Shown here: piece by piece, positions 16,441 through 62,040 of the stretch
Numbering within the stretch: position 1 is the stretch's first letter
Layout of the letters: each line of letters opens with the position of its first letter
Assembly: GCF_000244895.1 (NCBI RefSeq)
Contig: NZ_CM001441.1
Location: forward strand, 744,001-808,000
Direction: 5' to 3'
DNA length: 64,000 nt
From: Desulfosporosinus youngiae DSM 17734
GTDB taxonomy: Bacteria > Bacillota > Desulfitobacteriia > Desulfitobacteriales > Desulfitobacteriaceae
Made by a program: the position numbers and the translations under genes
Notes under the pieces: model-generated
Database searches by the model: none
Told to the model about the DNA's origin: nothing
Seen by the model: only the letters and a program-made list of their open reading frames with translations

Positions 16441-16514
16441 TTTCTGAGCTTTTAGCCATTTGCTGTCTTGTGATGTAAGCTCTACGATTCAAGAAGATAT
16501 GGTCTTGTTTCGGG

Positions 16515-16544
16515 TTCAAATTCGGAATCGATTCCGAATTTGAA
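16515..16544. repeat. Perfect 30-bp palindrome, copy 1
   Basis: The half-site TTCAAATTCGGAATC is followed directly by its exact inverse with no spacer. The central 28 bases recur identically at 16997-17024. The two copies bracket a decayed gene region. Confidence 0.85.
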
Positions 16545-16574
16545 TTACCATGGTCAGAGGCGGGCCAGTTTTTT

Positions 16575-16783
16575 ATCCTATAAGAGCGGCCCTTGGGCCG
16601 CAATGACAACTGCCATCGGCAGACATGCATTTCCCGTCTGGCGGGCATTAATGCAGGGGCGGATCATATAAATCGGTAGTTGTTGAATCAGGTCCGTCCG
16701 TGGTGCCGGAGCGTAAGTGTATATGTGCTGCCCAGCGTTGTGGCAAAGATCAGCCGCAGGGTCTTCTGCTGGGTATTTGCCAT
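16575..16783 (-). pseudogene. Decayed DUF2922-family gene (DUF1659 relic upstream possible)
   Basis: On the minus strand a strong GAGGAGG precedes ATG 16783. The first 25 codons read like a DUF2922 N-terminus (MANTQQKTLRLIFATTLGST then YTLTL). The frame then breaks: a stop occurs after 31 codons, while the continuation APRTDL appears in another frame. Upstream (about 16802-16850), GLAGQNPA ending in a stop resembles the end of a DUF1659 protein, its usual partner gene. The functions of both families are unknown. Confidence 0.5.
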
Positions 16784-16996
16784 GCCAATCCCTCCTCACC
16801 TTTATGCTGGATTTTGACCGGCCAAACCATGGTATGTGGTATTATCTTATGCACCTTGTCCGGCAGGGGTTACTCTTGTCCGGGGGCATTGATGACAAAA
16901 TAAGGGCAAAGCCGCAAAGTGCCTATGCGCTGACGGGCTTGTCCTTATTTTTGTCACAAGTGAGGGCTTGGACACATAGGCCATGGGTAAGGTTGT

Positions 16997-17024
16997 TCAA
17001 ATTCGGAATCGATTCCGAATTTGA
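16997..17024. repeat. Perfect 28-bp palindrome, copy 2
   Basis: It is identical over 28 bases to the centre of the palindrome at 16515. The sequence just inside both copies is also related in inverted orientation (TTACCATGG after copy 1, CCATGGGTAA before copy 2). That makes the 510-bp interval look like a unit with inverted ends. Confidence 0.85.
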
Positions 17025-17180
17025 GCTACACACAGGCAATTATCCTCCTGGAAAGGGACCAAGCCCTTATATTTATTTCTCTTTCGTGATTCTAGTCACG
17101 ATTAGACAGCCTGGGTCTTGATATAATTTGAGAAAGGAAATAGAAAAACTATTCTGACTAAGAAGGAAGGAGGTTGTATA

Positions 17181-25051: not shown

Positions 25052-25202
25052 ACCTGTTCCTGCTTTCCATGTGGTTTATGATTATATATTATCTCACGAA
25101 TGGCCATGATATATTTAGAAGCGGAAGGAATCGGCTTGTTTTCAGCGAATTGTATTAAAGTCATTGGTATTCTCTCAAATTTACACAGGTAAGGAGATTT
25201 TA

Positions 25203-25391
25203 GTGTTGGAAAGACCACAAAGCAATCCTAGTCGTATGGTTGTTATTGAAGACAAAAAAAGTGGAGAGCGTTTTCTTGTTGATCTCTTAAGAGGCCAAAC
25301 TTATGACAAAGAGCAATATATGAAGATCACTTATGAAGTACCTCTAAAGAAGGAATTCTGGGATTTGCCACGCTTAAGCAAGTCAAAATGA
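25203..25391 (+). CDS. Small hypothetical protein, 62 aa
   Basis: The family is not recognised. The soluble, mixed-charge protein includes MVVIEDKKSGERFLVDLLRG and the tail FWDLPRLSKSK. GTG 25203 is chosen because AAGGAG lies about 6 nt upstream; the longer frame from 25164 would start inside that leader. It is divergent from the NhaC gene, and the GC-rich repeat element begins about 10 nt after its stop. Confidence 0.55.
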   Translation: MLERPQSNPSRMVVIEDKKSGERFLVDLLRGQTYDKEQYMKITYEVPLKKEFWDLPRLSKSK

Positions 25392-25400
25392 AATTTTTTC

Positions 25401-25690
25401 AGAAGAGTCGCCCATGCCGCTGCGCAGCACCAGCAGAGGATGAAAATAGATCCTTTGGGTCGGGCGGCTTCGTCCACATCCGCTCACCGCAGCACTCCGA
25501 GGCTGGCCCACTCGCCGGTGCGGGACTCCGCCAAACCTCAGGGTAGTACCTGATGTGAACCTGTGGCTACGTTTCTCCGCACCGTCTTGTGGGCTTTTAC
25601 CGCCTCTCCATGCAAATGGGTTCGCTTCTGTGGACGAAGCTGCCCTGCTTGCGGGCCTAGGGACTCTTCTGCATGTCTTTTGTGGGTCTT
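25401..25690. repeat. GC-rich structured repeat element, copy A
   Basis: This is the same sequence family as the tandem pair at 61424-62040. A 17-bp closing stem pairs 25462-25478 with 25629-25645 (one G-T). Nested inside are GAGGC/GCCTC with GCCCAC/GTGGGC (25499-25511 with 25589-25606) and GGTGCGG/CCGCACC (25517-25523 with 25577-25583). A small head hairpin (GCTGCGCAGC) precedes it. The ends carry AGAAGAGTC (25401-25409) and its inverse (25662-25670). A 1-nt insertion relative to copies B and C breaks any shared reading frame. No protein is supported. Confidence 0.85.
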
Positions 25691-25856
25691 AATTGCAATA
25701 GGGCAACATAGACTTATTTTAGGTAACCGCAAGTAAGAGGCAGAGGGTTTTGGCTAAGGGTTTCTCATCCGGCGGGAAGCATGAAAAAGGGATCTCCACT
25801 GAGTAAGAAGGGTTTGGTATAAATAGTTTGAATGTTTAAAATATTTTGTGTTTGGC

Positions 25857-25885
25857 TTTACTTAAAACTCTGTGCCCTTTATAAT
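25857..25885 (+). promoter_or_regulatory. Sigma-A promoter of the sigma-54 activator gene
   Basis: TTTACT (25857-25862), a 17-nt spacer and a perfect TATAAT (25880-25885) lie about 36 nt before ATG 25921. Confidence 0.65.
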
Positions 25886-25920
25886 GTTTTCATAAGATGC
25901 TGGAAAATGAGGGGATAAAT

Positions 25921-27321
25921 ATGAGTGCCGGAGCCCATGCTGTCACAACTAGTATTATTCCGCAATGGAATCGTGAACTCTTATTTGAAATCCTGGATAA
26001 TATCCATGATGTTGTACTTGTCATCGATTCAGATACCACTATCGTCTATGCCAACGAGGCTTATGCAAGAATTTTAGGGGTACCTGTTGCCAAAGTTCTG
26101 GGTCGGAGGCTGGATGCAATTGAACCTGATTCTCCGACGATTAAAATGCTCCATACAGGGAAACCGAGCAGAGGTAATGGTTATTTGGAATCTCTGAATA
26201 TTACTGTAGTGGGCAGCTCTTTTCCCCTGTATAATGGGAAGAACATTATTGGGGCAGTTTCGATCTTCAAAAATATTACAGAAGTAGTAGAACTTAATCG
26301 TGAATTACAGCAGACTAAGGGTGTAGCGGACTATTTGAAAGAACAGCTTGAGCAATGGGAACATCTCCCTATGTCCTTTAAAGAATATGTAGGGCAAAAC
26401 AGTCGTTTGAAGGAAACCTTGGTGCTGGCAGCCAAAGTGGCCCGAACTGAAAGTACGGTGTTAATTCTTGGGGAAAGCGGCGTTGGCAAAGATGTTCTGG
26501 CCAGGGCTGTTCATAATTGCAGCCGGCGCAAAGATAAGCCCATGATTAAAGTGAATTGTGCCGCAATACCCGAGGATTTGATCGAAAGTGAACTTTTTGG
26601 CTATGAAGAGGGAGCGTTTACCGGAGCTAAAAAAGGCGGCAAACTTGGCAAGTTCGAAATAGCACACGGCGGTACCATTTTTCTTGACGAAATAGGGGAT
26701 ATGAGTATAACCATGCAGGCTAAATTATTGCGTGTATTGCAGGAAAAAGAATTTGAACGTGTTGGCGGAACAAAGACGATTAAAGTTAATATACGGGTGA
26801 TTGCGGCAACCAACCGGGATTTGGAAAGCATGATAGAAAAGGGTACCTTCCGTCATGATTTGTACTACCGGCTGAATATAGTGCCTCTCGTTCTAACTCC
26901 GCTTCGTGAACGGAAAGATGACATTCTGGAACTTTCCAAGACCTTCCTTAAGAAATTTTCCCGTGAATTAGGTCATGAACTAAATCTGTCTTCACAGGCG
27001 GAACGGTTTCTTCTAAAATATGAGTGGCCCGGCAACATACGGGAATTACAGAACGTGTTGGAGCATGCAAGCATTGTTTGCGGCGGTACAACGATTGAAG
27101 TGCGTCATTTGCCCGCGCATATTATTCCGACAAATGATGAACGGGCGAGCGTTGAGGAAAAACCCTATGATGTGAAGGAAATCGTGGGCAGAATGGAAAA
27201 GGAATTAATATTATCTGCCTTAGCTACATATAACAATAACCGTACTCAAGCTATGAAAGCCTTAGGTATTTCCCGGCGGGCTTTTTATGATAAGTTGCGT
27301 AAATATGGTATTGAAGACTGA
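25921..27321 (+). CDS. PAS-domain sigma-54 enhancer-binding activator
   Basis: The 466-aa activator has an N-terminal PAS domain (about residues 20-125), a central AAA+ domain and a C-terminal Fis-type HTH. The AAA+ domain shows Walker A in [14 protein letters not shown], the sigma-54 contact loop [10 protein letters not shown], and Walker B in FLDEIGD. The HTH reads [20 protein letters not shown]. No receiver domain is present, so the PAS domain should sense the signal. ATG 25921 follows GAGGGG; the upstream ATG at 25897 precedes it. The three sigma-54-type promoters downstream, each with a TGTATACA-like site, are its likely targets. Confidence 0.93.
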
Positions 27322-61423: not shown

Positions 61424-61712
61424 ATGCCGGTGTCGTGGTGCCTAGCAGAGGAGGAAAAAGGGACGGGTCCGGGTCGGGCATCTTCGCCCACATCCGCTCA
61501 CTCAGCATTCCGAGGCTGGCCCACGCGCCGGTGCGGGACTTCGCCAAACCTCCGGGTAGTACCTGATGTGAACCCCTGGCTCCGTTTTCCCGCACCGTCT
61601 TGTGGGCTTTTACCGCCTCTCCATGCAATGGGTTCGCTTCTGTGGGCGAAGCTGCCCTGCTTGTGGGTCTGGGATTCTTCTGTATGTCTTTAGGGTCTTT
61701 TTTCCGGGGAGT
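61424..61712. repeat. GC-rich structured repeat element, copy B (tandem array unit 1)
   Basis: The unit is 289 bp by distance to the same point in copy C. The closing stem pairs 61476-61492 with 61641-61657 (17 positions, one mismatch). It carries a C-G pair where copy A has T-A, a compensatory change. The inner stems GAGGC/GCCTC, GCCCAC/GTGGGC and GGTGCGGG/CCCGCACC are kept. The head hairpin is diverged in this copy. Open frames across it differ between copies and look like by-products of GC content. Confidence 0.85.
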
Positions 61713-61999
61713 TGTCCATGCCGCTAAGGCGGCACCGGCAAAGGATGAAAAGGACGCTCGGGTCGGGCAGCTTCGCCCACATCCGCTTACCGCAGCATTC
61801 CGAGGCTGGCCCACGCGCCGGTGCGGGACTTCGCCAAACCTCCGGGTAGTACCTGATGTGAACCCGTGGCTCCGTTTCCCCGCACCGTCTTGTGGGCTTT
61901 TACCGCCTCTCCATGCAATGGGTTCGCTTCTGTGGACGAAGCTGCCCTGGCTTTGGGGCCTGGGATTCTTCTGTATGTCTTTAGGGTCTTTTCGGAGTA
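61713..61999. repeat. GC-rich structured repeat element, copy C (tandem array unit 2)
   Basis: The closing stem pairs 61765-61781 with 61931-61947 with one non-Watson-Crick position (C opposite A on the plus strand, G-U if read on the minus strand). The head hairpin is GCCGC/GCGGC with a TAAG loop, followed by a GATGAAAA-type tail. Confidence 0.85.
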
Positions 62000-62040
62000 G
62001 CCGCCCATGCCGCTGGCGCGGCACCGGCAGAGGATGAAAA
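62000..62040. repeat. Partial head of a third array unit
   Basis: The head hairpin (GCCGCTGGCGCGGC) and the AGAGGATGAAAA tail are present, but the body is missing. The array thus ends in a truncated unit. Confidence 0.7.

Follow-up and report, generated by a model that had tools for sequence, protein, structure and literature searches.

A folded, many-copy intergenic repeat of Desulfosporosinus and its class, probably a non-autonomous mobile element

Positions 25401–25690 of the window, the 64,000-nucleotide stretch of the Desulfosporosinus youngiae DSM 17734 genome that was analyzed, hold a repeat unit, raising the question whether it is conserved as a protein or as a structure, and whether it moves. 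The unit lies, as originally predicted, after a small gene (25164–25391) and before a promoter-like site (TTTACT-17-TATAAT, 25857–25885), both conserved in relatives. No terminator-like pattern was found in window positions 25150–25950. Read on the inferred minus strand, the unit consists of a side module, stem P1, a core and a tail, and it is 86–91% identical to homologous copies across most of its length. Side module A (25401–25446), a GTAG-like tag with a short hairpin and no assigned strand, recurs in mosaics and on the downstream side of many copies. The core matched by our covariance model R1 spans 25467–25641 on the minus strand (E = 2.6e-41; G000:C1:769467-769641 in the numbering of the own genome). 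Two more minus-strand cores lie head to tail in the window, at 61481–61653 (G000 805481-805653, E 2.0e-42) and 61770–61943 (G000 805770-805943, E 2.8e-42), and an extra side module A, again with no assigned strand, follows the third copy at 61995–62040. Elsewhere in the window we observed two purine riboswitches (Rfam RF00167; 7582–7683 and 9554–9655) about 2 kb apart, and an inverted repeat at 16490–17050 with 60-nt arms, 441 nt between them and CAAATTCGGAATCGATTCCGAATTTG inside.

The stem that drew attention to this locus is present. P1 of the window copy, on the minus strand, pairs 25462–25478 (GGGCGGCTTCGTCCACA) with 25629–25645 (TGTGGACGAAGCTGCCC) over 17 positions, with a single G.T wobble at position 5. 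Its twelfth pair is T25473–A25634, compared with C–G in the copy near 61481 and C.A in the copy near 61770, so the three states proposed from the window alone are seen in the sequence. Exact motif matches numbered 3, against 0.00 expected by chance. The 1-nt insertion is also real and private: the window copy reads CATGCAAATGGG where the compared own-genome copies show CATGCAATGGG or a close variant, the added A falling within TGCAAATGGG (25611–25620, no strand assigned). The 9-bp outer inverted repeat, AGAAGAGTC (25401–25409) complementary to GACTCTTCT (25662–25670), exists but does not hold as a terminal repeat of the family. With at least 8 of 9 matching bases it occurs in one of 40 own-genome copies, the window copy itself, and the best of the other 39 reaches 7 of 9. 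It is therefore not a family feature, and we dropped it as a candidate for the element's end.

P1 turned out to be one helix of several, and the single stem first described is replaced by a multi-helix fold with side modules, present in about 110 genome copies. Within P1, minus-strand GCGAACC (25619–25625) pairs with GGUGAGC (25482–25488) in a tandem G.A helix whose flanking pairs covary. Further in are P2 (minus strand; plus-strand GAGGC/GCCTC, 25499–25503 with 25602–25606) and P4 (minus strand; 25515–25523 with 25577–25585). The apical hairpin (plus-strand CCTCAGGGTAGTACCTGATGTGAACC, 25536–25561; annotated on the minus strand) is the most conserved segment. A scan of genome contigs for this segment returned 63 exact-match DNA stretches, all in Desulfosporosinus or related or unclassified Clostridia records, among them Desulfosporosinus species, Gracilibacter, Paradesulfitobacterium and unclassified Clostridiales/Bacillota MAGs. 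A pseudoknot between apical GTGAACC and GGGTTCGC is compatible with the sequence; we did not retain it, because there is little variation in its columns and the covariation of pair 19-165 favors the tandem G.A helix.

The fold was examined for covariation over many copies, a check named in the original prediction. RNAalifold on the unfitted alignment gave 32 pairs, 20 of them with changes on both sides; in the refined structure, built on 28 sequences aligned with MAFFT blind to structure, 27 of 39 pairs had changed on both sides. The covariation score was 0.471, compared with 0.184 ± 0.011 for shuffled alignments (none of 500 reached 0.471); sliding the 3' partners gave no more than 0.111. The slid control, unlike the shuffles, accounts for relatedness, though its structure comes from these very sequences, and the gap is wide. 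All ten modelled P1 pairs show both-side changes across the genus and its relatives, as do eight of nine P4 pairs. P2 is compensated between lineages: GAGGC/GCCTC in Desulfosporosinus type I, GTCGC/GCGAC in another group, and GAAGC/GCTTC or GGAGC/GCTCC in the Gracilibacter and Paradesulfitobacterium records. Core copies differ by 1-nt and larger indels and by alternative hairpin inserts of varied length. Two such extra hairpins, GCGAAGACAGTGTCTTCG and GCGAAACTGTCCACCGGACACTTTCG, occupy the same two core positions, mutually nested, in several species (L074, L168, L173, L189, L036, L110 and others). Judged from the aligned copies, the repeat is conserved as a structure and not as a protein, a preference already expressed for the three window copies and now backed by covariation far stronger than three copies could give.

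It is probably the window's minus strand that behaves like an RNA. Folding energy of the core was lower on the minus strand in 144 of 166 copies (mean −89.1 vs −80.5 kcal/mol), and the consensus folding energy was −34.4 on the minus strand and −27.5 on the plus strand. The window copy alone folds equally well on either strand (z = −6.05 minus, −5.89 plus); the bias is a population result, drawn from copies that are not independent. In the cells of the plus-strand stems, C.A, which becomes G.U on the minus strand, outnumbers G.T by 34 to 20, and in P1 alone by 43 to 20, over many copies that are likewise not independent. On the plus strand, two paired segments enclose a conserved TC/TC, which on the minus strand reads as tandem G.A. 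There it forms GCGAACC/GGUGAGC or GUGAACU/AGUGAAC, and the genomes furthest away have the swapped form GUGAGC/GCGAAC. Of 44 rows, 33 have Watson-Crick pairs on both flanks. Because the minus strand is favored, the twelfth-pair C.A of the third window copy, described as an intermediate mismatched or wobble state, would be a plain G.U wobble and no mismatch.

How many copies are there, and where? A DNA search of the own genome found 59 pieces. The covariance model, with a 174-position core and built from the 28-sequence alignment made without structure, was run over the 5.66 Mb genome and gave 113 matches at E ≤ 0.01, E-values that are rough given a shortened calibration. Some of these matches belong to a second, diverged type, often in opposite orientation to a first-type copy and 170–300 nt away. 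Opposed pairs were noted at L164, L009, L021 and other loci (G000:C1 3324181+/3324522-, 453923+/454236-, 2431508+/2431879-), and the second type, which carries the shared block GATTCCACGAAGCC...CAACAAACTGGCTGAAGG, is present with high identity in other species too. Sequence runs read as N occur in L074, over about 100 bases of core, and in L052. The core was matched in 41 of 45 genomes of the family and in 56 of 82 genomes (18 of 27 genera) of the class; in a phylum-wide sample 9 of 398 genomes matched, only one of them outside the class. Copy number within a genus ranges from 1 to more than 100, and several clades have no copies, as does a 94%-complete Desulfosporosinus genome (G026). Collections of plasmids, phages and viral contigs gave no match to the repeat, nor did Rfam at gathering or lenient thresholds for the window and eight divergent loci. 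We found no description of the repeat in the open-access literature on the genus Desulfosporosinus, Desulfitobacterium and heliobacteria.

Copies are intergenic, occur in both orientations and are often no more than tens of bases from a stop codon. Their orientation relative to neighboring genes is unbiased (−,− in 17 cases, +,+ in 12, −,+ in 7 and +,− in 5). The nearest copy came from the same genome for 47 of 49 own copies (19.3 expected) and for 17 of 21 copies of a related genome, G011 (3.4 expected). A search of relatives for empty sites, the second check that had been suggested, supports mobility. In a comparison with G011 that covered 1.6 Mb of genome, the orthologous spacers lack the element at nine loci (L008, L009, L021, L030, L059, L060, L062, L194 and L245), and L007 has an empty site in Desulfosporosinus sp. 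SRJS8. At L245 the flanks are about 93% identical and a terminator-like hairpin stands in G011 instead. Terminator-like hairpins also replace the repeat at the window site in G021, G023, G024 and G015; the spacer there has diverged and is not a clean empty site. Within the compared part of G011, zero copies fell in G011:C1:1-400000 and 30 in the other 1.2 Mb; the regions were chosen, and the difference may be one of sampling. Since the copies are intergenic, lie in both orientations, are most alike within a genome and are absent from orthologous sites, they appear to have moved within genomes. The own genome and G011 may have a pair at L164 in common, in which case not all copies are recent.

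The relatives used for these sites have flanks 70–93% identical and spacers that have turned over, which limits the reading of exact ends. Read on the plus strand, many copies follow a T-rich stretch, start with CAGAGTAG and end with TTTTTCAGAGTAG. Direct repeats like TTTTTCAGAGTAG occur at both copy ends, their origin ambiguous given the turned-over spacers, and the end sequences may represent a target preference, a duplication or the end of the element. Tandem and mosaic arrays of copies and side modules occur, which is consistent with insertion beside an end of this kind.

Alongside the observed structure, copy number, non-orthologous positions, within-genome similarity and strand asymmetry, the explanation that we consider probable, with real room for doubt, is a non-autonomous mobile element with a complex folded RNA at its core. 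It would be protein-free and belong to the class of Desulfosporosinus. The core, a structured RNA of about 175–200 nt read from the window's minus strand, would comprise the outer stem P1, the tandem G.A helix, two or three more coaxial stems and the highly conserved apical hairpin. Copies would land in intergenic DNA in either orientation, often by gene ends, terminators or T-runs, and insertion next to existing copies and side modules, or within them, would produce the tandem arrays and mosaics. We infer that an RNA is made from the minus strand and that a protein acting in trans moves the element; this protein would recognize the folded RNA or a folded single strand. The element would be mainly selfish and not a host regulator.

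A doubtful but live alternative is a REP/REPIN-like single-stranded DNA element, in which a Y1 (HUH) transposase of the RAYT or IS200/IS605 type recognizes the GTAG hairpin module and the core is a passenger or is also read as ssDNA. The side module, with GTAG just 5' of its short hairpin, starts most copies and often follows them as well, and GTAG-tagged repeats thought to be mobilized by RAYTs are described (PMC3733652). The own genome has three Y1_Tnp matches, one of them RAYT-like (G000:C1:5113817-5114356), but no copies or side modules lie within about 1.5 kb of the three genes. At E ≤ 1e-15 the RAYT-like gene was not found in the copy-rich genomes G011 (at least 61 copies), G032 (60) and G035 (23), nor in genomes of another family of the class (f4) with 10–28 copies, and it is present in G026, which has none. 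Neither linked to nor co-distributed with the repeat, it was rejected as the partner. This counts against the RAYT-like subfamily and not against Y1 proteins in general. Moreover, the deep covariation sits in the core and not in the side module.

It is unlikely that the repeat represents a hitherto undescribed mobile class of RNA in its own right, with a complex fold that includes the conserved tandem G.A helix and apical hairpin. Such an RNA would lack a gene of its own and spread within one bacterial class through reverse splicing, reverse transcription or RNA-guided insertion near terminators. Improbable, too, is a regulatory or mRNA-stabilizing 3' element, with copies kept by selection because they serve the host as terminators or protective ends. 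The proximity to stop codons and the hairpins that replace the repeat in relatives would fit such a role, but orientation to genes is random, orthologous sites lack the element and the window locus has no terminator-like pattern. Selection at a locus would keep orthologues, yet copies cluster by genome, which argues against this explanation. We give little credence to a many-copy small RNA with a host function, amplified as genes are and not selfish: class-wide conservation, strict core motifs and strand-specific RNA features speak for it, but several clades and the nearly complete G026 do without copies, and their number varies from one to over a hundred within a genus. A protein-coding repeat is next to impossible, for although long open frames cross some copies, the indels, the compensatory changes in the stem arms and the varied hairpin inserts of the core contradict it.

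How does the probable mobile element with a folded core compare with known systems? MITEs are short, gene-free, intergenic and present in many copies. The repeat resembles them in all four respects, but has no conserved terminal inverted repeat (one of 40 copies) and is under structural constraint over its whole length. Group II introns are folded mobile RNAs, some types of which insert near terminators, as the repeat may do. HEARO, IscB-type and IS200/IS605-associated RNAs are large folded RNAs tied to mobile DNA, with some gene-free copies. The repeat shares the large fold and the gene-free state, and differs in that the examined copies contain no nuclease gene; Rfam covariance models for group II introns, HEARO and other families did not match it. 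Mobile/repeat sequence candidates (MRSC) from RNA screens of intergenic regions, such as MRSC-65-2, come close: the repeat likewise has many copies per genome, inconsistent gene orientation and a covariation-supported structure, and may act as RNA or DNA (PMC11109978). MRSC-65-2, however, forms one long stem and occurs across phyla (PMC11109978), whereas the repeat is multi-helix, with conserved internal loops, and nearly confined to one class. As to the association of such candidates with transposase, integrase, nuclease or helicase genes, the genes surveyed were the three Y1_Tnp genes, none of which has a copy beside it. Neither the main text of PMC11109978 nor PMC8632094 mentions Desulfosporosinus, Desulfitobacterium or Heliobacterium. 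REP, BIME and REPIN elements with their RAYTs are also extragenic, multi-copy hairpins with GTAG, as beside the side-module hairpin, and form mosaics, but REPs measure 20–40 bp (PMC3733652), whereas our core of about 175–200 nt is more complex and independent and lacks a linked or co-distributed dedicated RAYT. A scattered extragenic repeat is thus broadly of an ordinary kind, and its architecture is unusual and apparently undescribed: an elaborate structured element with more than 100 copies per genome, class-wide, and missing from Rfam and the literature searched. Time and again, large folded RNAs associated with mobile DNA have proved functional, as with group II introns and the guide RNAs of transposon nucleases, and the copies, the model and the strand prediction reported here are specific enough for direct tests of the RNA and its partner protein.
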